Source: Verrucomicrobiota bacterium (GTDB lineage Bacteria > Verrucomicrobiota > Verrucomicrobiia > Verrucomicrobiales > Akkermansiaceae). From it: a DNA stretch of 64,000 nucleotides. Shown here piece after piece: positions 6,117-28,692 of this stretch. Both the position numbers and the translations under genes were made by a program. The notes under the pieces were generated by a model that saw nothing but the letters and a program-made list of their open reading frames with translations, was not told where the DNA came from and did not search any database. Numbering within the stretch: the first letter of the stretch is position 1; every line of letters begins with the position of its first letter. The stretch is taken from assembly GCA_004293445.1 (NCBI GenBank), contig RDYP01000002.1:62001-126000 (forward strand). The letters run 5' to 3'.

Positions 6117-8042
6117 TCAGAGTTGGAGTCCGTAGCTGCGGCCACCCACCCCTTCGTACCAGCGCACGTAGGCCGAGTTCGCCATCGAATAGCCACCGGC
6201 GGTCGGGTAGTTTCCGGTGAAATACCAGTCACCACAGGGGCCCTTGATCGATGCCCGCAGATTTTCGATGGTCTGGAAGATGACGTTGACCTCGCCATCC
6301 CATTCCATGTCCTCCGGCGTCACCATCCGACTGATCTCCGCGGAAATCTCGTCGTCGCTGAAAGCCTCGTAAACCGCCTTCACCCGGTTGCCCATCTGTG
6401 CGGCCGGCTTGGCCAATTCGGCACGACACTCCTCGTAAATCCGGTCGAGCAAGCCCTGACGACCCGCGCGACGATGCAGCGCGACGGCCGCTTGGAAAGC
6501 GATGAACTTCCCGAGTTCCGACATGTCGATCCCGTAGCAATCCGGATAACGAATCTGCGGCGCTGTGGAACAGACCACGATCTTCCGCGGCGAGGTGCGT
6601 GCGAGGATCTTGAGAATCGACTTCTTCAGGGTAGTCCCCCGCACGATCGAATCGTCCAGCGCCACCAAGGCGTCATCCGGACGAACCACTCCATAGGTGA
6701 TGTCGTAAACGTGTGAGACCAACTGATCCCGCCCCTTTTCCTGGGCGATGAAGGTCCGCATCTTGATGTCCTTGTGCGCGATCTTCTCGCCCCGCGGCCA
6801 GTTTCGCAGAATCAAGTCATCCAGCAACTCGGGGCTGAGCTCGCCCTTTGCCTGAGCCTCCAAAATCGCAGACCGCACCTGCTGTCGACGATACAGGCGA
6901 AGCCCGTCCATCAAGCCATAGTAGGCGGTCTCGGCAGTGTTCGGAATGAAGGAAAACACCGCCTTGTCAAAGCTCTCGCCAATCGCCTCGACGACCTGCG
7001 TCACCAATGCCGCTCCCATCGCCTTTCGCTCACGATAGATCTGCGGGTCGTTGCCGCGGGAAAAGTAGATCTTCTCGAAAGAACAGGGCGTGTAACGCTG
7101 AGGTGGAGAAAACGGCAAATCACTGAAACTGCCATCCGCCTTGATCGTGATGATACTTCCCGGATCCACCGCTTTCACCTGCGAGGCATCGGCCTCGAAA
7201 ACGGTCATCAAGGGCACCCGCTCGGACGCGAACGCGATCACGTCTTCGGTCACCAGCATGTGACAGGGCCGGATTCCCCGTGGATCCCTCATCACAAACA
7301 TGTCCCCGTTGCCCACAACCCCGCAGATCGAATAGCCACCATCCCAGGCCTGCGCCGATTCACCGACGATTCTAGCGAGATCGAGCTGGGCGGAGATCCG
7401 ATCGGGCATGTCCCGGCCATCGACCCCTTCATCCCGCAACCTGCGGTAAAGATCGGTGTGAGCTTCATCGAGATGGAACCCGATCTCTTCCAACACCGTC
7501 TGGGTGTCCGTACCGAAAACCGGATGCTGCCCTCTCTCAATCAAAACCTGATTCAGCTCGGCCGCGTTGGTCATGTTGAAATTGCCCATGACCATGAGCG
7601 TCCGAGTAGGCCAATTGCTGCGGCGCAGATAAGGATGGCAGGAACCTTCGTCGAATTCGCCGGAAGTCCCGTAGCGCAGGTGACCGATCAACACCTCACC
7701 GCCGAAATCGTAGTGCTCCTTGATCGAATCGGGGCGGTCCGGACTGATCTGGCCCTTGCGAACCATCTTGTGGAAAGACTTCATCTCCTTCCGAAAGACG
7801 TTCGCCAATCCATCGCGCTCGCTGTCGCGCCGCCGGAAGACATAGGGTTGACCGAGCGGCATATCGAGCTTGGTGCAGCCAATCCCGATTCCGTCCTGCC
7901 CGCGGTTGTGCTGCTTTTCCATCAGTAGGAAAAGCTTCTGGAACCCCCACAGCGCGGTGCCGTAGCGGTCGTGGTAATAGGCCAACGGTTTGCGGAGCCG
8001 GACAGCGGCGATTCCGCATTCGTGGGTGAGGAAATCGCTCAT
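6117..8042 (-). CDS. purF: Amidophosphoribosyltransferase (long form)
   Basis: First committed step of purine synthesis: PRPP + glutamine -> phosphoribosylamine. The N-terminal Ntn glutaminase domain starts after a short propeptide (MSDFLTHE), leaving Cys9 (CGIAA) as the nucleophile. The phosphoribosyltransferase domain carries the PRPP-binding loop ALDDSIVRGTTL. At 641 residues it is well above the ~470-505 of the common PurF. Extra sequence includes ~125 residues after the PRPP loop, ending in GPCGDWYFTGNYPTAGGY and YVRWYEG. The gene follows purM after 13 bp on the minus strand, so the two are probably one transcript. No Fe-S ligand pattern was assigned. Confidence 0.92.
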   Translation of the reverse strand: MSDFLTHECGIAAVRLRKPLAYYHDRYGTALWGFQKLFLLMEKQHNRGQDGIGIGCTKLDMPLGQPYVFRRRDSERDGLANVFRKEMKSFHKMVRKGQISPDRPDSIKEHYDFGGEVLIGHLRYGTSGEFDEGSCHPYLRRSNWPTRTLMVMGNFNMTNAAELNQVLIERGQHPVFGTDTQTVLEEIGFHLDEAHTDLYRRLRDEGVDGRDMPDRISAQLDLARIVGESAQAWDGGYSICGVVGNGDMFVMRDPRGIRPCHMLVTEDVIAFASERVPLMTVFEADASQVKAVDPGSIITIKADGSFSDLPFSPPQRYTPCSFEKIYFSRGNDPQIYRERKAMGAALVTQVVEAIGESFDKAVFSFIPNTAETAYYGLMDGLRLYRRQQVRSAILEAQAKGELSPELLDDLILRNWPRGEKIAHKDIKMRTFIAQEKGRDQLVSHVYDITYGVVRPDDALVALDDSIVRGTTLKKSILKILARTSPRKIVVCSTAPQIRYPDCYGIDMSELGKFIAFQAAVALHRRAGRQGLLDRIYEECRAELAKPAAQMGNRVKAVYEAFSDDEISAEISRMVTPEDMEWDGEVNVIFQTIENLRASIKGPCGDWYFTGNYPTAGGYSMANSAYVRWYEGVGGRSYGLQL

Positions 8043-8055
8043 TGGTGGGAGGAGA

Positions 8056-9051
8056 TCACTCGCCGCTTACTTTCACCCGGACACCCTCGGTGTCCACCAG
8101 ACGACCCAGGACCGTGCCACCAGGACCAGCCGCCAGAATGGCCTCGGCGTCGGATGGGGAAACGATGGCCACCCAGCCGATGCCCATGTTGAAGGTATGG
8201 AAACGATCTTCGGAATCGACATGGGCCAGCAGCTTATCGATGCCGGGAAGCTCCCATCGCGGAATCTCCAAATCGGCACCAAAGCCGCGGAACAAACGCT
8301 CGAGATTCTCTGGCAAACCACCGCCCGTGATGTGAGCGAAAGCCTTCGGCCTCACACCCGCCGCTTTGATGTCGCGGACCACGTCGTGATACAAACGAGT
8401 CGGCTTGAGGAAACCGAGCAACTCCTCCTCGCTCACACAGCCGGGATGCTCGTTGAGAACCCGCCGGACCAAGCTCCAGCCATTCGCATGGATACTGTCG
8501 GAGGCATAGCCGATCAGCACGTCGCCAACCGCCAAAGTGGACGGATCCACCAAGTCAGGCTTCTCGGCGCAGCCAATGCAGAAGCCGGAAAGCTCGATCA
8601 CATCCGGCGGGACGATTCCCGGCATTTCGGCCGTCTCGCCACCTGCCAGGATGCAATCGCAGTCCGCAAGGTAATCGCACATCCCACCGATCAGGCGGGT
8701 GATCTTCTCCTCGTCGAGCGCCGCAATGCCGATGTAGTCGAGGAAAAGCAAGGGATCGCCACCCGTGGTGAGGATGTCGTTCACGCTCATCGCGACCAAA
8801 TCCTTCCCCGCGGTCTCGAGCAGATCATGCTCCAAGAGCAATTCCAGCTTGGTTCCCACGCCATCGCATCCGGTCACCATCACAGGCTCCCGATACGAAC
8901 TCAAATCGTAGCAGGCCGCGAACAAACCGAAGGCTCCAAGAAGCTTACGATTCTGCTGCGTGCGTGCCACGTGCCCTTTGATATCACCCACCAAGGCGGC
9001 CGCTCTTCGCGTGTCCACCCCGGCCTGCCGGTAAGTCAGCTTTCCTCCCAT
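8056..9051 (-). CDS. purM: Phosphoribosylformylglycinamidine cyclo-ligase (AIR synthetase)
   Basis: ATP-dependent ring closure of FGAM to AIR, fifth step of purine synthesis. From ATG 9051 the protein has 331 residues and starts MGGKLTYRQAGVD, as PurM proteins typically do (LTY-x-x-AGVD). Family blocks include VTGCDGVGTKL, MSVNDILTTGGDPL, ILAGGETAEMPG and AHITGGGLPENL. An in-frame GTG at 9096 would add 15 basic residues and is less likely. It is the first gene of a purM-purF pair and is divergent from the arabinose operon at 9214. Confidence 0.93.
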   Translation of the reverse strand: MGGKLTYRQAGVDTRRAAALVGDIKGHVARTQQNRKLLGAFGLFAACYDLSSYREPVMVTGCDGVGTKLELLLEHDLLETAGKDLVAMSVNDILTTGGDPLLFLDYIGIAALDEEKITRLIGGMCDYLADCDCILAGGETAEMPGIVPPDVIELSGFCIGCAEKPDLVDPSTLAVGDVLIGYASDSIHANGWSLVRRVLNEHPGCVSEEELLGFLKPTRLYHDVVRDIKAAGVRPKAFAHITGGGLPENLERLFRGFGADLEIPRWELPGIDKLLAHVDSEDRFHTFNMGIGWVAIVSPSDAEAILAAGPGGTVLGRLVDTEGVRVKVSGE

Positions 9052-9213
9052 GCTTCGCTTGTTGCCGCGTTGTAACACCCGACCCCGCACCGTCACGCGG
9101 AAAATCGGGAATCGTCCGAATCCTCGCGAAAGCCTTCATAAATGCCTGATATTTTGGATTTCCTTACTTTCACATTCATGCAAATTCCACCGCAAGTTAG
9201 GTAGTTTCACACC

Positions 9214-10647
9214 ATGAATGCGCCGGAAGCAGTCCCCCTCTGCGTCGATCTCGACGGGACTTTCGCCCAAGCGACGCTTTCGCACGAATCGCTCCCGCGA
9301 CTGACCCGGCAAAGACCGCTGCGCCTGATTCTTCTCCCCTTTTGGTGGATCGGCGGCCTTGCCCGGTCGCTAAAACGCCTTGCCCAAAGCAACCCCGCAC
9401 CCGCCCGACCGCCCGCCGCGGACGAACCTCTCGAAGCTTTCCTGCAAGCCGCACGAAAGCTCCGTCAGCCGCTCCATCGATTGGGCCATGAGTCTCGGAA
9501 TCCGCCCTCCGCGATCGACCGCCTCTTCGCATCGCACGAAATCATTCACTGCACTCCCAATCTCACCGGTGAAGCAAAGGCAGCACTGCTGGTCGCCCGA
9601 TTCGGAGAAAAGGCCTTCGATTACGCAGGGGACCCGGAACATGCCAAGGCGCTCGAAAAGCACGCACGACGCGTGTTCGTGATCCATCCCACGACCCGGA
9701 GTATCCAGCCCATCGGGCAGGATACCAACGACACGCAAATCCCTCGTCACCATGCCAGCACCTGGCAGGACTGGATCAAAGCCCTGCGAATTCATCAGTG
9801 GGCCAAGAACCTCCTGATCGCCATCCCCTTCCTCGTTGGACATCACTACCACGCCGCTTGGCAACTCGCCGGCCTGCTCGCTGCCTTCCTCTCGATGAGC
9901 CTCTGCGCGTCGGGAACCTATCTGTGGAACGACCTGCTCGATCTCGACCACGACCGCGCCCACCCCCGCAAAAAGCAACGCCTCGCCGCATCCGGAAAAA
10001 CATCCATACCCCGCATCGCCCTGGCCGCACTGAGCCTCGTCACGATCGGCCTCGGCAGCGGCTTCCTCCTCGCCCCCTCTTTTGGATTCCTCCTGATCGC
10101 CTACATCGCCGCCACCCTCACCTACTCGCTTTATCTCAAGAGAATCGCCCTCGCCGATATCTTCCTCCTCGCCTTCCTCTACCTGTCCCGCTTGGTCGCC
10201 GGCATCCTGATCTCGGAAGCCGTGATCTCCTTCTGGCTCTTTGCCTTCACCTTCCTCCTCTTCTTGTCGCTCGCCGCTGCCAAACGCTTCGTCGAACTCA
10301 ACGCCCACTCCGGCACGGGCGAAACCAAGCTCCATGGACGCGGCTATCAAACCCGCGACCTCCCCCTTCTCTCCCAGCTCGGAATTGCCAGCGGCATCGC
10401 ATCCTGCATCGTCCTCGGCCTCTATTCCAACAGCCCTCAAGTGACCGCGCTCTACCGCCACCCCGAGTGGTTCTGGGGCATCTGCATCGCTTCCCTCCAA
10501 TGGATTACCCGCATCTGGCTGCTCAGCCATCGAGGCGAGATGCACGATGATCCCGTGGTTTTCGCTCTCAAAGATCCCATCACCTGGCTGACCGGAGCCG
10601 CAGGCATCGCCTGCCTTCTGCTCGCCGCACCGATTCCCCCGCCATGA
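9214..10647 (+). CDS. HAD-UbiA fusion: polyprenyl-phosphate phosphoribosyltransferase
   Basis: 477 residues in two parts. Residues 1-~170 form a HAD-like domain with motif I VDLDGT (D12, D14), GEAKAALLVARFG for the conserved lysine region and DYAGDPEHAK in the motif IV position. Residues ~185-477 are a UbiA-type membrane domain with NDLLDLDHD (N239, D240, D243, D247) followed by RAHPRKKQRLAASG, as in mycobacterial Rv3806c, which transfers phosphoribose from PRPP to decaprenyl phosphate. The HAD part could remove the 5-phosphate, a step done by a separate protein in mycobacteria (inference). Motif IV lacks the usual second acidic residue and motif II is unclear, so this domain may be weak or inactive. 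The stop overlaps the next start (ATGA). Confidence 0.82.
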   Translation: MNAPEAVPLCVDLDGTFAQATLSHESLPRLTRQRPLRLILLPFWWIGGLARSLKRLAQSNPAPARPPAADEPLEAFLQAARKLRQPLHRLGHESRNPPSAIDRLFASHEIIHCTPNLTGEAKAALLVARFGEKAFDYAGDPEHAKALEKHARRVFVIHPTTRSIQPIGQDTNDTQIPRHHASTWQDWIKALRIHQWAKNLLIAIPFLVGHHYHAAWQLAGLLAAFLSMSLCASGTYLWNDLLDLDHDRAHPRKKQRLAASGKTSIPRIALAALSLVTIGLGSGFLLAPSFGFLLIAYIAATLTYSLYLKRIALADIFLLAFLYLSRLVAGILISEAVISFWLFAFTFLLFLSLAAAKRFVELNAHSGTGETKLHGRGYQTRDLPLLSQLGIASGIASCIVLGLYSNSPQVTALYRHPEWFWGICIASLQWITRIWLLSHRGEMHDDPVVFALKDPITWLTGAAGIACLLLAAPIPPP

Positions 10648-11957
10648 AACCCTCAGCCTTTCATTCTTGGGGCAGGCTGCGGCCAGCGATCGCACAAAGG
10701 GAGACTCCAGCGTGGCGGCACGAAGCACAGGCCAATCCCGGCCCCCGCCTCGCCATCGGACTGGGCCGATCCTACGGCGATTCCGGCCTGCTCGATGGCG
10801 GGACGATGGTCGACACCCGCTTCCTCGATCGCTTGATCTCCTTCGCCCCCGAATCCGGCATTCTCCGCGCCGAAGCAGGCATCAGTCTCGACGCCGTCCT
10901 CCGCTTCGCCGTCCCCCGCGGTTGGTTCCTGCCGACCACCCCGGGCACCCGCCAGGTCAGCCTTGGCGGGGCCATCGCCAACGACATCCACGGCAAAAAC
11001 CACCAGCTCGTCGGCTGCTTCGGCAACCATGTGCCCCGCCTCGCTTTGCTGCGATCCGATGCCCCCCAGCAAGAATGCCGTGCTGGCGATCCCCTTCACG
11101 CCGCCACCATCGGAGGACTCGGCCTGACGGGGATCATCACTTGGGCCGAACTGCAGTTGCGCCCCATCCGTTCCGCTTGGCTCGATGTCGAATGGATCCG
11201 CTTTCACGGACTCTCCGAATTCCTTGCCCTCTCCCAAGAGTCCACGACGTGGGAGCACAGCGTGGCTTGGATCGATTGCCTCAGCACCGGGAAACAAGGT
11301 ACCCGCGGCATCTTCATCCGGGGCCGCTGGAGCGACCACGCCGAGCTCGATCTCCATCGCGACGCCAAACTCCGCATCCCTTTCGACCTTCCCGGATTCA
11401 CCCTGAATCCCTTATCAATCCGGGCCTTCAACGCCCTTTATTACCGACGCTTTCGGGGGCCAACCAAACATCTCCGCCAGCACTACGCGCCCTTTTTCCA
11501 CCCCCTCGACTCGGTGCACGACTGGAACCGGATCTACGGCAAAAAAGGCTTTTACCAGTATCAGTGCGTCACACCGACCACCGCAGGCACGAGCCCCATG
11601 GAGGAAATCCTCCGCCTCATCCGAAACGCAAACCAAGGCTCCTTCCTCGCCGTGCTCAAGACCTTCGGCAGCCTCCCATCGCCCGGCATGCTATCCTTCC
11701 CCACCCCAGGAATCACGCTCGCGCTCGACTTCCCCAACCGCGGTGCCGCGACGCTGCAACTGTTCAAGCAGCTCGACACCATCGTCCGCGATTGCGGCGG
11801 GCGACTCTACCCCGCCAAGGACTCACGAATGAGCGCGGACGATTTTCAACGCGGCTACCAACGACTCGGCGAGTTCGAACGCCACCTTGACCCGGCCTTC
11901 AGCTCGGATTTCTGGCGTCGCATGAGCCGCCCTACCCCTCAGCCCCGGCACCCATGA
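10644..11957 (+). CDS. dprE1: DprE1-like polyprenyl-phosphoribose 2-oxidase
   Basis: FAD-binding oxidase of the vanillyl-alcohol oxidase fold, 437 residues. GLGRSYGDSGL (residues ~39-49) and TPGTRQVSLGGAIANDIHG followed by KN and GCFGNHV match the FAD-binding core of mycobacterial DprE1, and the end GGRLYPAKDSRM also matches. DprE1 oxidises C2 of decaprenyl-phospho-ribose to the 2-keto form. The segment matching the ..NVFK-FG.. region near the benzothiazinone-reactive cysteine of DprE1 reads GSFLAVLKTFG, so that cysteine appears to be absent (inference from memory of the family). It overlaps both neighbours by 4 bp (ATGA), so translation is coupled. Confidence 0.85.
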   Translation: MKPSAFHSWGRLRPAIAQRETPAWRHEAQANPGPRLAIGLGRSYGDSGLLDGGTMVDTRFLDRLISFAPESGILRAEAGISLDAVLRFAVPRGWFLPTTPGTRQVSLGGAIANDIHGKNHQLVGCFGNHVPRLALLRSDAPQQECRAGDPLHAATIGGLGLTGIITWAELQLRPIRSAWLDVEWIRFHGLSEFLALSQESTTWEHSVAWIDCLSTGKQGTRGIFIRGRWSDHAELDLHRDAKLRIPFDLPGFTLNPLSIRAFNALYYRRFRGPTKHLRQHYAPFFHPLDSVHDWNRIYGKKGFYQYQCVTPTTAGTSPMEEILRLIRNANQGSFLAVLKTFGSLPSPGMLSFPTPGITLALDFPNRGAATLQLFKQLDTIVRDCGGRLYPAKDSRMSADDFQRGYQRLGEFERHLDPAFSSDFWRRMSRPTPQPRHP

Positions 11958-12700
11958 CCAAGCCACCGTATCGCGCCATCGTCTTCGGAGCGACCTCAGC
12001 CATCGCCTCGGCCATCCTCCGGGAAATCACCCGGTCTCACAGCGCCGAGTTCCTCCTCGTAGGGCGAAATGCCACCAAGCTCGGCAACCTCGCCGACGAC
12101 CTCCGCGCCTACGGCGCAAACTGCTCGATCCACACCATCGACTTTCTCGACCCGACCACCGACTGGTCGGCAATCATCGAGAAACAGACCGGCCACTGGG
12201 ACCTCTTTCTCATCGCCCATGGCTCGCTCTGCGAGCAAGAGCAGGCCCTCACCCGCAGCATCGATGTCGCCCACGAAATCGCCGTCAATTTCACCAGCCA
12301 CGCGACCATCGCCGCCACCTGCTCCGCCGCCCTGCGCCGCCAAGGCCGCGGGACTTTAGCCGCCATCGGCTCGGTCGCTGGCGATCGCGGACGGCAGTCC
12401 AATTTCCTCTACGGCTCTGCCAAGGCCGGCCTCGCCACCTTCATGGACGGACTCCGCCACCGCCACGCCCGAGAAAAGGACATCCACATCGTGCTCCTCA
12501 AGCCCGGCATGACCAACTCCCCCATGACCGCGGACATCCCCAAAAGCCCTCTCTTTTCTAGCACAGCAAAGGTCGGAGCCCTCGGCTGGGAAGCCATCCG
12601 CCGCGCCACCCCCGTCGCCTATCTCCCCGGATGGTGGCGCTGGATCATGTTCGCAATCCGCGCCACCCCCGCTGCCCTTTTCCATCGCACCAAACTCTGA
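11954..12700 (+). CDS. dprE2: DprE2-like short-chain reductase (keto-ribose to arabinose)
   Basis: Short-chain dehydrogenase/reductase, 248 residues. The N-terminal nucleotide-binding segment is IVFGATSAIASAIL; the catalytic set is S in IGSVAGDRG with the Y..K pair in FLYGSAKAG. The C-terminal tail carries a hydrophobic stretch (RWIMFAIRATPAALF). It starts inside the stop of the DprE1-like gene. In mycobacteria DprE2 reduces the 2-keto intermediate to decaprenyl-phospho-arabinose with NADH. Conserved gene order with UbiA and DprE1 supports this assignment over a generic SDR. Confidence 0.82.
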   Translation: MTKPPYRAIVFGATSAIASAILREITRSHSAEFLLVGRNATKLGNLADDLRAYGANCSIHTIDFLDPTTDWSAIIEKQTGHWDLFLIAHGSLCEQEQALTRSIDVAHEIAVNFTSHATIAATCSAALRRQGRGTLAAIGSVAGDRGRQSNFLYGSAKAGLATFMDGLRHRHAREKDIHIVLLKPGMTNSPMTADIPKSPLFSSTAKVGALGWEAIRRATPVAYLPGWWRWIMFAIRATPAALFHRTKL

Positions 12701-12725
12701 TCCCGCAGCGAGCACCTGCCACCCG

Positions 12726-14492
12726 ATGACCGCGACCCCAGCACCCACCGCCCCATGGAACCGGAGCGAAGTCATCCTTCTTGGCTGCCTGCTCGCCCTG
12801 ATCTGGCTGCTCGCCCGCCCGGGCATGACCGCTCCACTGCTGCTCGATGACCACGAAACCCTCTCCCACGTCAGCAGCTTCCAGTCATGGCGCGATGCCC
12901 TGAAGCCCGATTGCTTCGGCGTCTTCCGCCCCGTGAAAGGCCTGCTCTTTTACCACTTTCACCTCCACGGCATCCCGCCGCTTCCCACAATCCACTCGCT
13001 CGTCCTTGGCGCCTACTTGCTCGCCACCATCAGCATCCACTGCCTCTTCCGACACCTCCTCGGCTGCTGGCGCTGGGGCCTCTTGGCCAGCTTCCTCTGG
13101 GCCACCAGCGCGACCCAGACCTCCACCGCCGTCTGGCTGAGCTGTATCAATATCAGCGTTGCCATCCTATTCGCCTGCCCCGCCATTCTCTTCCACCAAC
13201 GCTCCTGGCACCGCCAAACCAGCCGATCCCTCAGTCTCGCCTGCGTGTTCCTACTGCTCTCGCTCGCAAGCTACGAGACCGCCCTCTGCATCGCACCGGC
13301 CTGTCTGCTTATCGATCGATTCCGCGGCCGCAACCTCTTGTCCAAGCCCGCACTCGCCCGCTACCTCGCACTTGGCACCACCACCCTCGCCTACCTCGCC
13401 CTCCGCGCATCTTCGGGCGCCCATCACGACGCCCATGCCACCAATGTCGGCTTCGACCCCGACATGCCCGCCTGGCAATTGGTCGCCTCCGCCCCATGGC
13501 TGCTCTGGCGACACTTCTCCATGTGGCTCATGCCCTTCGGCAGGATCGAATTCGTCAGCACCTACATCTGGGGACTTTCCGCGCCCCTCCACGAACTCGC
13601 CGCCGCATGGGGCTTCCTCATCATCCTGATCACCACCGTCTTCCTGACTCACAAAAAAGCCCCCCTCGTTTCACTAGGCATCGCCCTCTTCCTCGTTGCC
13701 AGCTTTCCCACCTCGAACCTCATCCCACTCTGGGTCGGCCCCGTGGAGGATTACTATCTCGTCTTCCCCTCCATCGGCCTCGCCGTCGCACTCGTCGGCA
13801 TCGCACGGAAAATCATCACCCTCCGAAAAGCCCATCGCACTTCTTCCGCCGCCCTCACCTTCAGCACCTCGCTGCTCGGCAGCCTCCTGCTCTGGAGGAT
13901 GGCGACGATGCTTCTCTTCTGGCCGCAGGCGAAACTCTGGACCGATCCCATCCAACTCTTCGTCCGGACCATGGACTCCCGACCGGCCCAGTTTAACTGC
14001 AAAACCCTCATCGCCCGCGAACTCCTCCTAGGCGGCGAATACCAACTCTCCAAGGAATTGGCGCTCGAATCGATCCGCGAAGCCCCATGGCAACCCTCCA
14101 CTCACTCCGTACTGGGCGAACTCGCAATCCAAGACGGCGACGACGCGCTCGCGCTCACCCATTTTGAAGAATGCCTTCGCCGAGTCGAGACCGGCAATCT
14201 GCATGACTTCGCCAAGCTCCGACGGGCGGCGATCCTTATGAAAAATCCCCTACAACGAGACAATGCCCGCACCGACCTACTCGAAATTCTCAGCCGCCCT
14301 GCATCCGACTTCCACTACGACGCAACCCGCGTCCTCACATCGCTCTACCTCGCCGATACCAAACCCGAGAAGGCCCTCCGCACGCTGGAACGATCGCTCA
14401 CCCTCCACCCCGAAAAGGCTGCCGACCTTCACCCGGTGATCCTCAACCTCAAAACGACCATGCGATCGACAAACCCAACCCAAGACCCATGA
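12726..14492 (+). CDS. GT-C-like membrane glycosyltransferase with C-terminal TPR region
   Basis: 588 residues. The first ~410 carry about ten hydrophobic segments; after the first one comes a LLLDDHETL motif (D41, D42) in the position of the catalytic acidic motif of GT-C enzymes, which use polyprenyl-phosphate sugars on the outer face of the membrane. The last ~170 residues are helical and repeat-like (LLGGEYQLSKELALES, SVLGELAIQDGDDALALTHFEECL), consistent with TPR units. This layout recalls TMTC/GT105 O-glycosyltransferases. It follows the DprE2-like gene by 25 bp, so transfer of arabinofuranose from the lipid donor is a sensible guess. Neither donor nor acceptor can be read from sequence. 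Confidence 0.7.
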   Translation: MTATPAPTAPWNRSEVILLGCLLALIWLLARPGMTAPLLLDDHETLSHVSSFQSWRDALKPDCFGVFRPVKGLLFYHFHLHGIPPLPTIHSLVLGAYLLATISIHCLFRHLLGCWRWGLLASFLWATSATQTSTAVWLSCINISVAILFACPAILFHQRSWHRQTSRSLSLACVFLLLSLASYETALCIAPACLLIDRFRGRNLLSKPALARYLALGTTTLAYLALRASSGAHHDAHATNVGFDPDMPAWQLVASAPWLLWRHFSMWLMPFGRIEFVSTYIWGLSAPLHELAAAWGFLIILITTVFLTHKKAPLVSLGIALFLVASFPTSNLIPLWVGPVEDYYLVFPSIGLAVALVGIARKIITLRKAHRTSSAALTFSTSLLGSLLLWRMATMLLFWPQAKLWTDPIQLFVRTMDSRPAQFNCKTLIARELLLGGEYQLSKELALESIREAPWQPSTHSVLGELAIQDGDDALALTHFEECLRRVETGNLHDFAKLRRAAILMKNPLQRDNARTDLLEILSRPASDFHYDATRVLTSLYLADTKPEKALRTLERSLTLHPEKAADLHPVILNLKTTMRSTNPTQDP

Positions 14493-14645: not shown

Positions 14646-15302
14646 ATGAGCATGAAAACGCAGTTACCACAGATCAAGCTGCAAGCAGGCTTGGCCATCG
14701 GTTACCGCCAAGCCATCGCTTCTCTTCCGGAAGATATCTTTCTCCCAGGCGGCACGCATTTCCTCATCGCTCGCAATGGTCGCGGCAAGACCACCCTGCT
14801 CCGTACTTTGGCCAAAACGCTCAAACAGGTCGCAGGGAGCTTCGTGACGGAAGGAAAGACTCAGTATCTGTCGGAAGATTTGCGCTTCGATCCCCACATG
14901 AGCGTCGACGGCATCTTCAGGGCGATCGTTCCCGCCGCTCGTCAAGAGGCCGCCCGCCAACTTGCGAAGACCACCGAACTCGACCTCCGGAAAAGTTACG
15001 GGCAACTCTCCACCGGCAATCGCCGAAAAACACATCTCATCGTAGCAGAGCAAGCGATCGCTCCTGACCGAGCAAACATCCTCCTGCTAGACGAGCCATT
15101 CAGCGGACTTGATGCCTACTCGCGAGAGGTTTTCGAACAACTCTGGCACAACAGCCCCGATCAGGTGCTCCGCCTCGTCAGTTGCCACCCCGATTACGAT
15201 TCCATGGGCATGCCGAGCACACTCGTCATCCAAGGCAACGAAATCCGCCACAGCACCGGACCGCAACAGATCTGGAGCCAACTGAAGGGTCAGCTCAATT
15301 GA
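14646..15302 (+). CDS. ABC transporter ATP-binding protein
   Basis: 218-residue ATPase. Walker A reads ARNGRGKTT (residues ~42-50, first glycine replaced by alanine), the signature is LSTGNRRK instead of LSGGQ, and Walker B is ILLLDEPFSGLD with a following histidine in VSCHPD. The unusual signature resembles ATPases of small export or biogenesis systems such as the CcmA type. The permease gene starts 8 bp after its stop, so they form a two-gene ABC-2-like system. Substrate unknown. Being first in the run that leads into the pilus genes suggests, but does not prove, an envelope role. Confidence 0.8.
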   Translation: MSMKTQLPQIKLQAGLAIGYRQAIASLPEDIFLPGGTHFLIARNGRGKTTLLRTLAKTLKQVAGSFVTEGKTQYLSEDLRFDPHMSVDGIFRAIVPAARQEAARQLAKTTELDLRKSYGQLSTGNRRKTHLIVAEQAIAPDRANILLLDEPFSGLDAYSREVFEQLWHNSPDQVLRLVSCHPDYDSMGMPSTLVIQGNEIRHSTGPQQIWSQLKGQLN

Positions 15303-15310
15303 ACCGCGCC

Positions 15311-16078
15311 ATGAGCCTCTACCGTTTGACCATCGCCACGCTCTTCCGCAGGAAGTCGTGGGTGATCTGCGTCTTTGCGGTCGGCGTGCTCCCCTTCTGC
15401 CTCCAACACCTCTCCAGCGGGACCGAAAATCCCGCGCTCCTCAAGCCGGCGATCGCCCAAGCGACTTGGGCGATGGCGTTGCTCTCGACGATCTTCTGGG
15501 GCTTTTTCACCGCCGCGATACAGGGCGAAAGCAACGCCCGCTCCGGCCTTGGCGAGTATTTCCTGAGCTCCGGCGTCTCCGCCGGTCGCCAATTGCTCGA
15601 GATGTGGCTGGCAGTGCTCACCTACCTCATACCACTTCCATTCCTCGCGGCCGCCATCTGTATCCTCCGCACTAGCCCCGCCCTCACCGAGGAGAAGACG
15701 ATGTGGATGGTGACCAATTTCCAATACGCCCTTCTCTTCCTCCTCGTCATGACTCCATTGGTCGCCTTGGCCACCGCAGTCGCATCGCGCTTCGGCAGCC
15801 TCACCGGCTTCCTGACATCCGGTTTTCTCGCCATTTACGGACTTTACGGCGTCGGTTATCTCAAGCTGCTCGGCAATCTCGAGGAAAACGCGGTCCTCAA
15901 ATGGATCTGGACCGGCTCGCCGCACTACCACTTCGCCGATCCTACCGAACGCCTGCGCTACAAACTCGGCGCCATCGACTGGGACAAGTTCCCCCTGCTG
16001 CTCGCCTACTTCGGCGGCATCATGCTCGTTCACGCCACTCTCTCACGCCTCATTTTTCGCGTACGCGCCACGGCCTGA
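15311..16078 (+). CDS. ABC transporter permease
   Basis: 255-residue membrane protein from ATG 15311 with about six hydrophobic segments (for example VICVFAVGVLPFCL, MALLSTIFWGFFTAAI, YALLFLLVMTPLVALATAVA, LLLAYFGGIMLVHATLS). It lies immediately after the ATPase and forms the membrane half of the exporter. No known substrate family was recognised. A longer frame reaching back to 15182 overlaps the ATPase and is not credible as a start. Confidence 0.75.
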   Translation: MSLYRLTIATLFRRKSWVICVFAVGVLPFCLQHLSSGTENPALLKPAIAQATWAMALLSTIFWGFFTAAIQGESNARSGLGEYFLSSGVSAGRQLLEMWLAVLTYLIPLPFLAAAICILRTSPALTEEKTMWMVTNFQYALLFLLVMTPLVALATAVASRFGSLTGFLTSGFLAIYGLYGVGYLKLLGNLEENAVLKWIWTGSPHYHFADPTERLRYKLGAIDWDKFPLLLAYFGGIMLVHATLSRLIFRVRATA

Positions 16079-16102
16079 GAATCACGCAAGCATCTACCAC
16101 CC

Positions 16103-16933
16103 ATGAACTCTCGCCGCCTCACACTCCACTCGATCCTCGCCCTCTCCGGCGTGGCTCTGTGGACCTACGGCGCGCGGCATCTGGCATCGGATGGGGCTTT
16201 CGATTACGATCCGAACCCTCTCGGACTGAAGACCAGCCCATACGGCCAGGTGATTGCCCTCGCCGTCCAAGGCGGGATCGACTCCGATTGGCACCGCGTC
16301 GAAGTCGGCTCCAGCAATGGCAGCCAGAACCACAGGCAACTCGAAGTCACCACCAAACCATCCGGGCTGCTGGCACGACTCGAAGACGCAGCCACCGAGC
16401 GGACCAATCCCTTACCAGCCACCCACGGTCATAAATTCTACCTTCGCCGCGAAGTCGAAGACCGCCTCCGCTTCGCCTACGAGCTCGATCCCTCGAACTA
16501 CGCGAACTACAACGCCTACCATCTCTTCCTCACCGAGCCATCCGTCGGGACCCGACGCATCCTCAGCCAGCGTGCAGTGCGTCTCGCCCGCACCACGATC
16601 GATTACTCACTCCGCGAAAGCTCCGACCCCCGCCCCGCCCTCACCGCGGCGGCAGCTGCAGGCAATATCCTCGAACTGATGCTCCTCAGTCCTGACGAGT
16701 ATGATCTCGATACCGTCCAGCGTCAGTTTACCGAGCTCGACCGCGCTCTCGCCCGCCATCGAGACCTCGCTTCCAGGTGGCTCGATTCCGGCGAGTTTCA
16801 ACGACTCTCTCCAGCCCGCCAGCAGGAGATGCTCGAACGTTTTCACTTCGTCACCAAGGTCCGCGATGCCGCAGCAGGGACCATTTCGCGCCTGATCTCC
16901 GCCACTTCCGAGCAGGCCTCCAATTCGCACTGA
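16103..16933 (+). CDS. Unknown membrane-anchored protein upstream of PilT-like ATPase
   Basis: 276 residues with one N-terminal hydrophobic segment (LTLHSILALSGVALWTYGA), so probably anchored with the rest outside the cytoplasm. The remainder is mostly helical and charged, with a central block KFYLRREVEDRLRFAYELDP. No family was recognised. The gene ends 3 bp before the PilT-like ATPase and starts 24 bp after the permease, so it bridges the ABC genes and the pilus genes within one likely transcript. Confidence 0.65.
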   Translation: MNSRRLTLHSILALSGVALWTYGARHLASDGAFDYDPNPLGLKTSPYGQVIALAVQGGIDSDWHRVEVGSSNGSQNHRQLEVTTKPSGLLARLEDAATERTNPLPATHGHKFYLRREVEDRLRFAYELDPSNYANYNAYHLFLTEPSVGTRRILSQRAVRLARTTIDYSLRESSDPRPALTAAAAAGNILELMLLSPDEYDLDTVQRQFTELDRALARHRDLASRWLDSGEFQRLSPARQQEMLERFHFVTKVRDAAAGTISRLISATSEQASNSH

Positions 16934-16936
16934 TTC

Positions 16937-18214
16937 ATGTTCACCGCCGTCCAAGAACCGCCACCGCTCCCCGCAGGCAATGATGCCTCCGGGACGAGCG
17001 CACGCTTTGCACCCGGCATGGACGGAGCAACCTTGCTGGCGATCATCTTCCGCGTCTGCAAGGAGATCCGCGTCTCGGACATCCAAATGCGCGCCGAGCG
17101 CCCCGTTTACATCCATACCAACAAAGGCGTGGAGAAACTCGACATGCTCGGGATTCTCAGCGACCGGCACATGGACTCGATCCTCAAAGAGCTCATCAGC
17201 CATCGCGAAAGCGCCAGCTGCAGCTTCGGCGACAACGAAAACCTTCCCCTCACGCTCGAGGAAAAGATCGCCAACGCCATCCGTGAATTCGTCGAACGTA
17301 AGGTGGCCGATTTCTCATGCGACGGCGTTCCGATGGGCAACGATGGCGAACGCTCCGGTCGCCTCCGTATCCAAGCACACCTCAGCTCGTCCGGCCTCGG
17401 GATCACCTGCCGCATTCTCAACGATTTCATCCCGGAACTCGAAAGCCTCGGCATCGATCCCGATACCAATGCCACACTGCGCCAAGCCGTCCAGAAACGC
17501 GCCGGCCTTTGTCTGGTGACCGGCCCCACGGGCTCCGGCAAATCCACCACCCTCGCCGCCCTCATCGATTGGCTGCGCCGCAATCACGGCAAGCACATCG
17601 TTACCGTGGAAGATCCGATCGAATACCAGTATCCGGACGACATGGAAGACCCGGAATACCCGGGCCGTCGGGTCGCTTGCCCCAGCGTGGTCACCCAGCA
17701 GGAAGTCGGCCGCGACCTCCATTCCTACCGTCAGGGATTGAAGGACGTCTTACGCAAGGCCCCGCATGTGATTCTGCTCGGTGAGATTCGCGACCGTGAG
17801 GCGATGGAAACTTGCATGGAGGCCGCCCAAACCGGCCACCTCGTGCTCTCCACCCTGCACACCACCGGTGCCGTCAAAACCATCGGCCGCATCCTCGAGC
17901 TCTACCCCAAGGAAAGCCACGGCTCCATCCTCTCACGACTCTCTGAAATCCTTATTTTCATCCACTCGCAAGGCCTGCTCAACGGCGTCCAACGCCGCGT
18001 GCTCACTTACGAATTCCTGCAAAACAACGACGACTCCGTCGCCTCAGCGATTGCCAATTACGAGGCAGGCGCACGATCCCTAGAAGACGTGATCCGCCGT
18101 GCCGGCAATATCGAATGGGACGCCAACCTCCGCCGCCTGCTACGCCAAGGGCTGATTACCGAACACACTTTCGAGAACGCACGAATGAACCGGGACGATT
18201 CAGAAATCCTCTAG
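16937..18214 (+). CDS. PilT-like twitching/retraction ATPase
   Basis: Secretion/pilus ATPase of 425 residues. Walker A GPTGSGKST is at residues 196-204, the Asp box is VTVEDPIEYQY, Walker B is VILLGEIRD and the His box is TGHLVLSTLHT, in the order expected for PilT/PilB ATPases. It lacks the C-terminal zinc CxxC pairs of GspE/PilB and the long N-terminal domain, so a PilT/PilU-like (retraction) role is more likely than extension. It carries extra residues compared with PilT around 125-145 (CDGVPMGNDGERSG). It is followed 59 bp later by the first prepilin. Confidence 0.83.
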   Translation: MFTAVQEPPPLPAGNDASGTSARFAPGMDGATLLAIIFRVCKEIRVSDIQMRAERPVYIHTNKGVEKLDMLGILSDRHMDSILKELISHRESASCSFGDNENLPLTLEEKIANAIREFVERKVADFSCDGVPMGNDGERSGRLRIQAHLSSSGLGITCRILNDFIPELESLGIDPDTNATLRQAVQKRAGLCLVTGPTGSGKSTTLAALIDWLRRNHGKHIVTVEDPIEYQYPDDMEDPEYPGRRVACPSVVTQQEVGRDLHSYRQGLKDVLRKAPHVILLGEIRDREAMETCMEAAQTGHLVLSTLHTTGAVKTIGRILELYPKESHGSILSRLSEILIFIHSQGLLNGVQRRVLTYEFLQNNDDSVASAIANYEAGARSLEDVIRRAGNIEWDANLRRLLRQGLITEHTFENARMNRDDSEIL

Positions 18215-18273
18215 GTTCACCCATGCGGCCTCCCTCCCAGGACAAGAAACACACCCCTAACGAATAGACACAC

Positions 18274-18693
18274 ATGAAACTGACACACATCAACAAGCGC
18301 GCGAAAGGCATGACGCTCCTCGAGCTGACGGTCGTCATCCTCGTTCTGCTTTCCCTCATCTCCATCCTCTTCATCGGCGCCCGCGCCTGGAAGAAGGGCT
18401 CCGACCGCGCCGCCAACATCATGGTGGTCCGCAACGTCCAACAGGCCGTTCGCTCCTACCAAAACATGAACAACATCTCCGTCGGTGCCGCCGTCGATGC
18501 CACCGTTGCCGGCCCCATCTTCGGACCCGGAGACTTCATCGAGAACCTTCCCACCCACCCCGTGGCAGGACTCTCCTACACCTACACCGGAACCGTTCCC
18601 GCCATTGGAACGCTGTTCACCTCGAGCACCGGCACCCCGACCAATGGGGGAGCTCTCAGTGACTACGCTCCAACCAACTACCAAGACTGGTAA
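18274..18693 (+). CDS. Type IV prepilin, tandem copy 1
   Basis: 139 residues. A 12-residue basic leader ends in AKG, then the mature N-terminus MTLLE carries Glu at +5 and a ~22-residue hydrophobic helix (LTVVILVLLSLISILFIGA). This is the classic prepilin-peptidase processing site, though +1 is Met rather than Phe. The head domain is short, rich in Thr/Ser/Gly, lacks cysteines and ends YQDW. It differs from copy 3 (19443) at roughly 11 of 139 positions. It may be a major pilin or a GspG-like pseudopilin. It is followed by a hairpin 17 bases after the stop. Confidence 0.88.
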   Translation: MKLTHINKRAKGMTLLELTVVILVLLSLISILFIGARAWKKGSDRAANIMVVRNVQQAVRSYQNMNNISVGAAVDATVAGPIFGPGDFIENLPTHPVAGLSYTYTGTVPAIGTLFTSSTGTPTNGGALSDYAPTNYQDW

Positions 18694-18709
18694 TTCAGCA
18701 AGACCGCCG

Positions 18710-18740
18710 TTTTTCCATCAGCCCGAGGAGGCTGGAAAAA
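18710..18740 (+). other. Hairpin after prepilin 1
   Basis: TTTTTC plus CAGCC pair with GGCTG plus GAAAAA around a 6-nt loop, leaving a 3-nt bulge on the left arm. The stem has 11 pairs and starts 17 bases past the prepilin 1 stop. It is followed by an A-rich stretch rather than T, so an mRNA-end or processing role is more likely than strong termination. Confidence 0.5.
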
Positions 18741-18760
18741 CAAACAAAGCATCCACATGA

Positions 18761-18815
18761 GGCGGCTTGGCGGGTGATTCCGTCAACCAAAGCACGAGAT
18801 GACTCCCAAGCCGCC
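18761..18815 (+). repeat. Inverted repeat in spacer between prepilins 1 and 2
   Basis: Perfect 10-bp arms GGCGGCTTGG (18761-18770) and CCAAGCCGCC (18806-18815) are separated by 35 bases, ending 42 bases before the prepilin 2 start. The second spacer has a structurally similar but sequence-unrelated element at 19335-19383. Confidence 0.6.
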
Positions 18816-18857
18816 CTTGCCCACTTTTCAAATCTCTCCCCAAACGTCGTAACAACC

Positions 18858-19277
18858 ATGAAATGCACTCGCATCACCCGGCCCGCGAAAGGCATGACGC
18901 TTCTCGAACTGACCGTCGTCATCCTCGTTCTGCTGTCCCTCATGTCCATCCTCTTCATCGGCGCCCGCGCTTGGAAGAAGGGCTCCGACCGCGCCGCCAA
19001 CATCATGGTGATCCGCAACGTCCAACAGGCCGTTCGCTCCTATCAAAACATGAACAATGTCGCGGTCGGCGCCACCGTTGGAGTCACCACCGCAGGCCCG
19101 ATCTTCGGTGCCGGGAACTTCATCCAGAATCTTCCAACCCACCCTGTGGCAGGACTCTCCTACACCTACACGGGAACCGTCCCTGCCATTGGAACGCTGT
19201 TCGCATCGAGCACCGGAACCCCAACCAACGGCGGAGCCCTCAGCGACTACGCTCCGAGCAACTACCAAGACTGGTGA
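18858..19277 (+). CDS. Type IV prepilin, tandem copy 2
   Basis: 139 residues from ATG 18858, same design as copy 1: leader ending AKG, MTLLE at the cleavage site, hydrophobic helix, identical core AWKKGSDRAANIM and NVQQAVRSYQNMNN, same C-terminal YQDW. Differences from the other two copies cluster in the head (NVAVGATVGVTTAGPIFGAGNFIQN and FASS). It has Cys3, but in the leader, which is removed. An in-frame extension to 18774 has no prepilin leader features and is rejected. It is the middle of three tandem paralogues. Confidence 0.88.
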   Translation: MKCTRITRPAKGMTLLELTVVILVLLSLMSILFIGARAWKKGSDRAANIMVIRNVQQAVRSYQNMNNVAVGATVGVTTAGPIFGAGNFIQNLPTHPVAGLSYTYTGTVPAIGTLFASSTGTPTNGGALSDYAPSNYQDW

Positions 19278-19285
19278 TCGCTGTT

Positions 19286-19319
19286 CGGCTTCCTTTCCCC
19301 AAGCGGAAACAGGAAGCCG
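19286..19319 (+). other. Hairpin after prepilin 2
   Basis: CGGCTTCCT (19286-19294) pairs perfectly with AGGAAGCCG (19311-19319); the loop has a further internal TTCC/GGAA pairing. It begins eight bases past the stop and has no T-tract, matching the placement of the hairpins behind prepilins 1 and 3. Confidence 0.55.
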
Positions 19320-19334
19320 TCGCGACCACCCTCC

Positions 19335-19383
19335 GCCCGGGAGAGCACCTCAGTCCAACAAGGCTAGGTTCACTCTCCCGGGC
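19335..19383 (+). repeat. Inverted repeat in spacer between prepilins 2 and 3
   Basis: Perfect 11-bp arms GCCCGGGAGAG (19335-19345) and CTCTCCCGGGC (19373-19383) are separated by 27 bases and lie 59 bases before the prepilin 3 start. It is the counterpart of 18761-18815 in position but not in sequence. Confidence 0.6.
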
Positions 19384-19442
19384 CAGCCGCCGGAACCCCG
19401 GCCACACTCCCCGATAATAACACACAACACACCCACACCCGC

Positions 19443-19862
19443 ATGAAACTGACCCGCATCACCCGTCCCGCAAAAGGCATGACGCTCCTCGAGCTGACCG
19501 TCGTCATCCTCGTCCTGCTCTCCCTCATGTCCATCCTCTTCATCGGCGCCCGCGCTTGGAAGAAGGGCTCCGACCGTGCCGCCAACATCATGGTGATCCG
19601 CAACGTCCAACAGGCCGTTCGCTCCTATCAAAACATGAACAACATCGCCGTCGGTGCCGCCGTCGATGCCACCGTCGCCGGCCCCATCTTCGGACCTGGA
19701 GACTTCATCGAGAACCTCCCCACCCACCCTGTGGCAGGACTCTCCTACACCTACACCGGAACCGTTCCCGCCATTGGAACGCTGTTCACATCGAGCACCG
19801 GCACCCCGACCAACGGCGGCACCCTTGCAGACTACGCACCGTCGAATTTCCAAGACTGGTAA
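19443..19862 (+). CDS. Type IV prepilin, tandem copy 3
   Basis: 139 residues with the same leader/cleavage site (AKG|MTLLE) and helix as copies 1 and 2. Its head (GAAVDATVAGPIFGPGDFIEN) matches copy 1 while its leader (TRITRPAKG) and LMS/MVI residues match copy 2. This mosaic suggests recombination or gene conversion among the copies. The C-terminus differs slightly (GGTLADYAPSNFQDW). The Thr/Ser-rich head would offer O-glycosylation sites. It precedes the assembly genes, separated by a strong hairpin. Confidence 0.88.
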   Translation: MKLTRITRPAKGMTLLELTVVILVLLSLMSILFIGARAWKKGSDRAANIMVIRNVQQAVRSYQNMNNIAVGAAVDATVAGPIFGPGDFIENLPTHPVAGLSYTYTGTVPAIGTLFTSSTGTPTNGGTLADYAPSNFQDW

Positions 19863-19873
19863 AGTTCGCTCAT

Positions 19874-19906
19874 CGATGCGGCCGGGTGACAGACCCGGCC
19901 GCATCG
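19874..19906 (+). other. Strong stem-loop between prepilins and assembly genes
   Basis: A perfect 14-bp stem, CGATGCGGCCGGGT and ACCCGGCCGCATCG, encloses a 5-nt loop (GACAG). It starts 11 bases past the prepilin 3 stop. No T-tract follows. It may stabilise the abundant pilin mRNA or attenuate transcription into the assembly genes (inference). Confidence 0.7.
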
Positions 19907-20015
19907 GACTCGATCCCGATCACCCTGCCAATTTCCGTGGCGGGCAATCGGTCGCTCATCCTCTCCCCCAAAAGCTCCCCCCGGCCGATGCTCGCACACT
20001 CAAGCAATTCGTCTC

Positions 20016-21806: not shown

Positions 21807-21830
21807 CTGCGTTCCCTCTCGCACCGCGAC

Positions 21831-22364
21831 ATGTTTTACCGCCAATCCATCCTCATTTTCGGCTTCATCCTGCCCCTCCTCGCTTGCGTGGGAGTGTTCG
21901 CCGGAGGCCTCGCCATCAAATCAAACGCGACCGCTTCTTTCGAAAACAAGCAGACCTTGTTCAAAGCTACCGAGATGAATCGCTTCGGCTCGATCGGCCT
22001 CGAAACCCAAGTCGGAAAACGCCGTGAGCACTTCGAACGCTGGAACGAGCAAATGAAAAACGAATCGTCGAATTCGATCACCTCCCACCTCAAGGAGATC
22101 GGTGACATGCTCCCAGCTAAGGAATTCCAACAAACCGCGGCGGAATACCCACCCGGCAAGGCGGGATTTGCCACCAGCTCGGCCCAGAAATCCTCGCAAG
22201 TCAGACTCGCTTTCCGCGGCACCTTCCGCTCGATGCAGCGGGCCTTCCTCGAATTGGAAACCCGCATGCCGCAACTCCAACTCCAGGAGCTCAAAATTGA
22301 TCCCAGTTCCTCTTCCTCGTCCGGCCTGAACTTCCAGGTCACCTACACCGCTTGGGAAAAATGA
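21831..22364 (+). CDS. PilO/GspM-position membrane protein
   Basis: 177 residues with an N-terminal membrane segment (ILIFGFILPLLACVGVFAGGLAI), then a coiled-coil-like stretch (LETQVGKRREHFERWNEQMKN) and a compact C-terminal domain (QVRLAFRGTFRSMQRAFLELE). This is the PilO/GspM architecture, and the gene lies between the PilM/N-like and secretin genes where pilO is expected. It is shorter than Akkermansia Amuc_1100, the pilus-associated protein encoded at a similar place. It would link the inner-membrane platform to the periplasm. Its stop overlaps the next start (ATGA). Confidence 0.6.
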   Translation: MFYRQSILIFGFILPLLACVGVFAGGLAIKSNATASFENKQTLFKATEMNRFGSIGLETQVGKRREHFERWNEQMKNESSNSITSHLKEIGDMLPAKEFQQTAAEYPPGKAGFATSSAQKSSQVRLAFRGTFRSMQRAFLELETRMPQLQLQELKIDPSSSSSSGLNFQVTYTAWEK

Positions 22365-22993: not shown

Positions 22994-23051
22994 CCCCCGC
23001 CACCACCACGGCACTCATCGTCGCACGATAGCATCGCACACCTCACTCGTC

Positions 23052-24770: not shown

Positions 24771-24812
24771 GCTCCGACACGCGCCCGTCAAAGCCAAGCC
24801 CATGTGATTCCG

Positions 24813-28199: not shown

Positions 28200-28221
28200 A
28201 AGTTCCTACCCCATCCACGGC

Positions 28222-28635: not shown

Positions 28636-28656
28636 CAAAAGCGCCCCGGAATCCTC

Positions 28657-28692
28657 AAGATTTCCTTCTTTTCAAGAAATACGAGGAATCTT
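28657..28692 (+). other. Imperfect stem-loop upstream of the fourth prepilin
   Basis: AAGATT-CCT pairs with AGGAATCTT (one bulged T), and the loop contains a further TTCTT/AAGAA pairing. It lies in the 74-bp spacer between 28635 and the start of the prepilin-like gene at 28710. It may mark a processing site or weak attenuator. Confidence 0.35.

Follow-up and report, generated by a model that had tools for sequence, protein, structure and literature searches.

The window analysed here, 64,000 nucleotides corresponding to positions 62001-126000 of its contig, carries at 9214-14492 a run of four genes encoding a HAD-UbiA fusion, a DprE1-like oxidase, a DprE2-like reductase and a membrane glycosyltransferase with a GT-C fold and a TPR-like tail. 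We regard the locus, on balance, as a lineage-specific pentofuranose glycosylation cassette, probably for D-arabinofuranose (D-Araf) and most likely directed at pilus proteins. The components of this reading are not equally firm: it is highly probable that the lineage makes a lipid-linked pentofuranose by enzymes of the type of the first three (hereafter the trio) and that this GT-C protein uses it there; D-Araf is the likely sugar; and a pilus protein is proposed tentatively as the acceptor. The host genome (3.35 Mb, 97% complete) belongs to the Verrucomicrobiota near Haloferula, a Gram-negative lineage as had been predicted. All four genes expected from the letters of the stretch are real open reading frames (ORFs), as follows.

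9214-10647, forward strand: HAD-UbiA fusion, polyprenyl-phosphate phosphoribosyltransferase (PPPRS/Rv3806c-like), 477 aa; UbiA part at residues ~180-477, motif NDLLDLDHD intact
9226-9693, forward strand: HAD (5'-phosphatase) part of the above, residues ~5-160; frame open, motif I (DLDGT) kept, the others degenerate
10644-11957, forward strand: DprE1-like flavin adenine dinucleotide (FAD) oxidase, homologue of decaprenylphosphoryl-ribose 2'-oxidase, 437 aa
11954-12700, forward strand: DprE2-like SDR reductase, 248 aa; SDR-motif Ser, Tyr and Lys present
12726-14492, forward strand: GT-C/TPR membrane glycosyltransferase, 588 aa; GT-C fold at residues ~10-414, TPR-like tail at ~416-586

The original prediction had the genes joined by ATGA junctions. 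Four-base overlaps of this kind are present at 10644-10647 and 11954-11957; the GT-C/TPR gene begins 25 bases past the DprE2-like gene, with no overlap. The four-gene arrangement is not a matter of chance, because the trio recurs, together with a fourth gene of this type, in eight genomes of the genus, the host's included. A scan for promoters and terminators gave no excess over shuffled sequences.

The proposed homology of the trio to Rv3806c, DprE1 and DprE2 is borne out by profile matches and by solved structures. The fusion protein matches the UbiA family of Pfam (1.5e-17) and passes NCBIfam PRK08238 (461 bits against a cut-off of 351), and its best PDB sequence match is 8j8j, a decaprenyl-phosphate phosphoribosyltransferase (2.2e-21 over residues 186-389) which is the structure of Rv3806c (PMC11127046). 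The NDxxDxxxD motif of the UbiA family is found as NDLLDLDHD; the cut-off of NF008977, the decaprenyl-phosphate phosphoribosyltransferase model, is not reached (126 bits against 234). For the oxidase the best PDB sequence match (5.1e-70 over residues 29-427) is the DprE1 chain 4aut, from M. smegmatis. A 51-row tree groups it with members of its genus and with DprE1-like rows from Actinobacteria, Proteobacteria and Acidobacteria; eight of nine FAD-oxidase outgroup rows split off at 100/100, the ninth (L014) being long-branched. The equivalents of H132, K134, W230, Q334, Q336, K367 and K418 (presumably the numbering of M. tuberculosis, matched here by motif) are kept in all 42 DprE1-like rows and correspond in the window to H116, K118, W209, Q305, Q307, K339 and K392; at these positions eight of the nine outgroup rows retain only K418, and L014 only the His. 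The original prediction had named a position outside the DprE1 clade as its refutation; tree and residues place the oxidase inside the clade with its active site kept. The reductase keeps its SDR-motif Ser, Tyr and Lys.

The transferase is tied to the trio by its distribution. Among 38 related genomes, a strong DprE1 match (E<=4.4e-192) was found in eight of the 18 genomes of the genus and in one of another family (G025). Full-length GT-C/TPR proteins (E<=1e-140) occur in exactly the eight DprE1-positive members of the genus and in none of its other ten, two of which are just 61% and 72% complete; partial matches in 11 further genomes, mostly to the TPR part, were left uncounted. In 260 genomes of the family, where scoring took in the best five or six candidates of each genome and a weak copy may escape, DprE1 is found in 13, GT-C/TPR in 13 and both in nine (Fisher p 4e-11, uncorrected for kinship). 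The transferase adjoins the trio in all nine genomes that hold both, and the GT-C and UbiA genes overlap by four bases in L033 and L037/L045. In Haloferula rosea (L045) the consecutive order is GT-C/TPR, HAD-UbiA, DprE1, GtrA, DprE2, with four-base overlaps at GT-C/UbiA, DprE1/GtrA and GtrA/DprE2. Two transferase subtypes exist in the genus, one preceding UbiA and one following DprE2. That the donor pathway has its own transferase, as originally proposed, is supported genetically. Trio carriers across the phylum number 26 of 387 genomes; at 24 loci (23 outside the genus plus L040) DprE2 adjoins DprE1 in every case, with a UbiA match in five and a GT-C/TPR match in none. A second, distinct type of trio (HAD-UbiA, DprE1, DprE2) was seen in L040 and L152, whose two DprE1 proteins are sisters across families.

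The fourth protein is predicted to consist of a GT-C fold and a TPR tail, TMTC-like in layout. Homologues were found in Haloferula rosea, Verrucomicrobiaceae bacterium E54, the Akkermansiaceae metagenome-assembled genome (MAG) LJ_bin-2047 and two Verrucomicrobiia MAGs. Across 12 aligned rows including the window, the early DD motif that had been noticed (residues 41-42) is invariant, and D62, RP68-69, K71, H90, Y183-E184-T185, N240, H263, R273, E275 and D342-Y343-Y344 are also common to all; the window motifs read DD (41-42), FRPVK (67-71) and SYET (182-185). The TPR-like tail, likewise foreseen, gives a weak profile match in the window protein and is clearer in the homologues and in the predicted model; at E<=0.001 the only Pfam match is TPR_7, with no Emb or Aft family. 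In having a first-loop DD and TPRs at the C terminus, the window transferase and its homologues share two features of the TMTC proteins (GT105). The DUF1736 profile gave no match in the window protein (E<=0.001) or in three homologues (E<=0.1), for which reason we do not file the transferase as a TMTC.

AlphaFold2, run with six rows, yielded models with pLDDT 72 and pTM 0.63 for the full protein and pLDDT 68 and pTM 0.75 for residues 1-432, the transmembrane part having been folded by itself because TPR proteins ranked first when the full model was submitted to Foldseek. With residues 1-432, all 11 Foldseek rows at E<=0.001 are oligosaccharyltransferase or translocon-oligosaccharyltransferase entries. 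Among the 50 matches listed by VIA, 46 are GT-C glycosyltransferases (AftA, AftD, AftB, EmbB and ArnT included) and four are glycosylphosphatidylinositol (GPI)-transamidase chains; AglB 3waj (Z 17.6, 330 aligned, 6.2 A), Pmt4 9e61 (Z 16.3, 336 aligned, 5.0 A) and AftA 8if8 (Z 14.8, 310 aligned, 5.5 A) are examples. A PDB search with the GT-C/TPR profile found matches in the TPR part, as judged from the best 60 of 175 rows. It is the transferase that is new here: by Pfam it falls into no named arabinosyltransferase family. It is possible, and we suggest it guardedly, that the GT-C/TPR proteins are a new family of TMTC-like design which O-arabinosylates type IV pilus proteins of Verrucomicrobiota, TPR-tailed and with a nameable donor.

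Extra GT-C/TPR copies away from the trio occur in G006, G008, G011 and G013 (L046-L049), with no evident partner genes. A second GT-C-like protein is encoded near the trio or GT-C/TPR gene at L035:12949-14535, L033:3776-5368, L034:10602-12140, L037:5068-6666 and L149:10204-11901; it bears a DDPYIH motif in L035 and L033, and a weak PMT_2 match was obtained with one of these proteins and none with another. The DDPYIH-bearing form is, in our estimation, reminiscent of AftB.

From these parts we envisage the following pathway. The UbiA enzyme would join the 5-phosphoribose of phosphoribosyl pyrophosphate (PRPP) to polyprenyl phosphate, and the 5-phosphate would be removed by the fused HAD domain in the relatives, and in the window genome by some other route, if to any real extent. 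The DprE1/DprE2 pair would then invert C2 to give polyprenyl-phosphate arabinofuranose, and the lipid would be flipped, in the relatives probably by a GtrA-like protein. The GT-C/TPR enzyme would use this donor in the periplasm, where its TPR tail might hold the protein acceptor, the neighbouring type IV pilus system supplying the likeliest acceptor proteins.

This system follows the cassette, at 14646-30991. An ABC transporter comes first, then a PilT-like ATPase, the pilins, the secretin, PilB and PilC:

14646-16078, forward strand: ABC transporter ATPase (14646-15302) and adjoining membrane protein, presumed first genes of the neighbouring pilus cluster
16937-18214, forward strand: PilT-like ATPase, pilus cluster neighbour (family profile scans)
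18274-18693, 18774-19277 and 19443-19862, forward strand: three tandem type IV pilin genes, candidate acceptors (family profile scan)
23052-24770, forward strand: secretin (PilQ-like), pilus cluster neighbour (profile match)
25373-27067, forward strand: PilB-like ATPase, with a homologue in the pilus operon of a second genus (g19)
27060-28199, forward strand: PilC/T2SSF protein, with a homologue in the g19 pilus operon
28710-29132, forward strand: second type of pilin, candidate acceptor

The membrane protein adjoining the ABC ATPase is without a Pfam match and is a putative permease. PDB searches for window 20016, 21831 and the pilin gave no informative solved relative. A PilQ of Akkermansia has been described and type IV pili have been predicted in Verrucomicrobia (PMC4960237). 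The tandem pilin genes (18274-19862) are 87-91% identical in DNA and spaced 584-585 bases apart; those related loci that yielded a pilin showed single ones. The Ser/Thr fraction past residue 40 is 0.15-0.21 in six first-kind pilins of carriers and 0.13-0.16 in three pilins of non-carriers; the rows are too few, some loci yielded no pilin, and this small difference is left unused as evidence. On the other side of the cassette, and divergent from it, are PurF-like and PurM-like genes (6117-9096; Pfam glutamine amidotransferase and AIRS). PRPP is a substrate of PurF as well as of the UbiA enzyme.

Linkage of the cassette to the pilus cluster is partial. In six of the eight carriers in the genus the cassette lies within ~7 kb of the first gene of the cluster (the ABC ATPase), and PilT and pilin genes were seen beside the trio in G000, G011, G001 and G014; the stretches from G006 and G008 end after the first genes of the cluster. 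The trio is situated between purM and the pilus cluster in G000, G006, G008 and G011 and just beyond purF in G001 and G014. A second genus (g19) possesses a homologous pilus operon, in which PilB is 82-86% identical; at its 3' end three genomes (G537, G495 and G509) have a GT-C/TPR gene and a fourth, G523, has the trio. In G537 the GT-C/TPR gene overlaps the preceding ORF by four bases; the G493 contig starts 804 bases ahead of its GT-C/TPR gene; and second copies in G537 and G523 are without pilus linkage. The presence of trio or transferase at either end of one operon in two genera argues for a functional connection, without amounting to proof.

Several observations weigh against the proposed pilus glycosylation cassette, some of which are taken up below with the alternatives that they favour. 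The trio and the pilus cluster are on different contigs in two of the eight carriers in the genus (G013 and G017), and no pilus gene was matched within 10 kb on either side in G518. Four genomes of the second genus (G493, G495, G509 and G537) have GT-C/TPR without a DprE1 match; the UbiA profile, applied to ten chosen genomes, matched in seven, with none in G493, G495 and G537 and a match at 3.8e-93 in G509. These trio-less transferases form a separate clade (the second copy of G537 standing apart). With four carriers lacking a DprE1 match and three a UbiA match, the GT-C/TPR family overall need not use a pentofuranose. DprE1 without GT-C/TPR occurs in four genomes of the family (G523, G271, G552 and G553). 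The transferase models are of middling confidence, and hits of the TPR part include many unrelated TPR proteins.

A serious alternative, which we consider possible if not favoured, is that the donor pathway works and that its acceptor is a surface polysaccharide or lipopolysaccharide. Nearness to the pilus genes would then be inherited from the purMF-pilus neighbourhood, as it could be, because in the genus all seven stretches that were compared, five of them from trio-less genomes, have purM-purF next to the pilus genes. This alternative gains from a family-2 glycosyltransferase gene 4.2 kb upstream of the cassette, beyond purF-purM, from the second trio type of G025 and G523 (L040, L152), which appears to sit among glycosyltransferase-like and further polysaccharide-type genes, and from the characterised HAD-UbiA prototype, which modifies an O-polysaccharide (PMC11127046). 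Against it are the second genus, where trio or GT-C/TPR genes stand at the opposite end of the homologous operon for pili, and a predicted pilin-arabinosylating relative in P. syringae which has a HAD domain (PMC11127046). The top fold matches of the predicted model are mostly protein glycosyltransferases, which would also speak for a protein, although a fold shows no acceptor.

Equally to be reckoned with is that the pathway is decaying in the window genome, with a dead HAD domain, a lost flippase gene, a single GT-C left and no arabinose made. By homology the HAD part of the predicted fusion is present, yet it has lost the majority of its catalytic motifs. In an alignment of eight HAD-UbiA proteins, motif I is present in all and the other losses are confined to the window, where motif II (TAS) is gone, motif III is without its Lys (NLKG to NLTG) and motif IV without its second Asp (GDSxxD to GDPEHA). 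Motifs II-IV are kept by 12 other HAD-UbiA sequences, five of them beyond the alignment (L042, L113, L115, L146 and L152; Asn replaces the first Asp of motif IV in L115), a count of 12 that keep and one that lacks them which leaves out L039 (partial) and L158. The window protein does not have the full motif set I-IV of a HAD phosphoribose phosphatase (PRP). Its HAD domain is 37-44% identical to those of six relatives in the genus, which are 59-90% alike among themselves, while its UbiA part is 68-72% identical to the same six; for the distant L040 the values are 24% (HAD) and 39% (UbiA). Divergence is much greater in the HAD part than in the UbiA part; relative-rate comparisons of the two gave one direction in all nine (p 0.001 to 0.16; the comparisons are not independent). 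Third-position GC is 0.66 in the HAD codons against 0.79 in those of UbiA. A frameshift is ruled out as the source of the decay, tblastn with an intact HAD domain giving one frame across 169 residues.

Nor does the remainder of the donor pathway in this genome support the completeness that had been claimed. A GtrA-like gene (PF04138, 40 bits over 26) lies between DprE1 and DprE2 in six of the eight trio carriers of the genus. There is no additional gene between 9214 and 14492, hence no dedicated flippase gene in the cassette, and a GtrA query that finds six relatives has no match in the host genome, other flippases not having been sought genome-wide. A PAP2 search with hits in both relatives, as well as in 11 of 14 control genomes, gave none in the host genome, and a second HAD of this kind was not found in it (E<=1, three genomes searched; other phosphatases were not sought). 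The host genome is, moreover, the smallest of the 18 in the genus (3.3 Mb against 4.2-7.8 Mb). Against these signs of decay stand four frames that are all open and intact UbiA, DprE1 and DprE2 motifs. G518, G523 and G017 are likewise without GtrA between DprE1 and DprE2, and as the genome is 97% complete the absences are not final. Furthermore, a HAD-site mutant of Citrobacter youngae still gave some dephosphorylated product (PMC11127046). At one locus without GtrA, a predicted membrane protein is encoded after DprE2 on the opposite strand (L042:15276-16217). It presumably resembles flippases. Our boldest thought, to which we give very little credence, is that the window lineage, with no working HAD or PAP2 phosphatase, transfers a sugar that is still 5-phosphorylated.

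That the product is another pentofuranose, non-actinobacterial DprE1/DprE2-like pairs perhaps differing in stereochemistry or partner enzymes, seems unlikely. Sequence cannot fix the sugar, and both curated models stay below their cut-offs: the DprE1 model NF053785 scores 341 bits against a cut-off of 500 and the DprE2 model NF053786 148 against 250. None of the 387 genomes of the phylum reaches the NF053785 cut-off, and as these equivalog cut-offs are unmet we speak of DprE1-like and DprE2-like proteins. The positions matching 385 and 387 also differ between the window and the actinobacterial DprE1 rows. The catalytic residues are nevertheless conserved, and Araf-containing glycans accompany DprE1/DprE2 homologues (PMC11127046), both of which favour D-Araf.

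The equivalent of position 387 is residue 360 (window 11721-11723), which is Ala here, as in 38 of 40 non-actinobacterial DprE1-like rows; Cys is found in L113, L115 and both actinobacterial rows. Position 387 is, as we understand it, the benzothiazinone-bound Cys of DprE1, and natural insensitivity to benzothiazinones would be predicted.

Finally, it is most improbable that the GT-C/TPR gene is an unrelated neighbour of the trio, since the four genomes of the family with the trio alone and the four with the reverse are outweighed by eight of eight carriers against none of ten non-carriers in the genus, by adjacency in every genome holding both, and by the overlap with UbiA at L033 and L037/L045.

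The cassette thus invites comparison with systems already known. The suggestion that such a pathway would be novel outside Actinobacteria does not hold: systems with HAD-UbiA and DprE1/DprE2 have been published for Gram-negatives, where Araf glycans go with the DprE1/DprE2 homologues (PMC11127046), D-Araf is placed on Pseudomonas pilins by TfpW (PMC11841053, PMC12369383), and donor genes are found on proteobacterial plasmids. No description of the system in Verrucomicrobiota was found among the titles and abstract openings listed from the open-licence PMC literature. The plasmid runs, from Salipiger and Agrobacterium pusense (L162:3942-8078 and L166:2407-6045), have UbiA, GtrA, DprE1 and DprE2; donor genes and GtrA are alike, the gene order differs, and no GT-C/TPR protein is annotated in the stretches shown.

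The mycobacterial pathway to decaprenylphosphoryl arabinose (DPA; Rv3806c, Rv3807c, DprE1, DprE2, Emb/Aft) shares three homologous enzymes with the cassette. It differs in that UbiA is HAD-fused here, and in that there is no PAP2 match, PAP2 being the family of Rv3807c, and no Pfam match to Emb or Aft.

In the three-component systems, HAD-UbiA was shown to make polyprenyl-phosphate ribofuranose and family GT136 was founded (PMC11127046). That of C. youngae (ORF15, HAD-UbiA PPPRS; ORF14, MATE; ORF12, GT136) resembles ours in its HAD-UbiA protein, UbiA motif and GT-C transferase, and the Araf versions also have the DprE1/DprE2 pair (PMC11127046). Unlike these, the cassette has no MATE gene (its relatives have a GtrA-like gene, the window none), a transferase with a TPR tail in place of a carbohydrate-binding module (CBM), a degenerate HAD domain and, in some of the genomes, a link to a pilus operon. 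The group IV pilin system of P. aeruginosa/paraeruginosa (TfpW, PSPA7_6245-6251) is similar in its lipid-linked D-Araf genes, GT-C transferase and pilus gene link; there, however, the donor genes and tfpW stand apart, and the UbiA of P. aeruginosa has no HAD domain (PMC11127046). Arabinosylation of Pseudomonas pilins reportedly protects against pilus phages (PMC11841053, PMC12369383).

With the O-mannosyltransferases TMTC1-4 the transferase shares the order DD, (Y/F)RP, E(T/Q), then TPRs (PMC7801869). It differs in lacking a DUF1736 match, in that the Lys of KE(T/Q) and the Arg of ERxxY are not, by our reading of the alignment, at matching places, and in its donor. TMTC1-4 have uncharacterised prokaryotic homologues, and TPR-tailed GT-C proteins of many prokaryotes are described as poorly characterised (PMC7801869); the genetics presented here ties one such subfamily to a defined lipid-linked donor. 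Donor, acceptor and family are directly testable, since a named strain, Haloferula rosea KCTC 22201, has the genes intact. If our reading is true, pilin arabinosylation extends from Pseudomonas to another phylum by way of a different transferase, and the window genome shows how a dephosphorylation step can be lost. What is added to the known systems is a dedicated transferase family and its link to pili, together with the finding that this host has, unexpectedly, lost both the flippase gene and phosphatase motifs.

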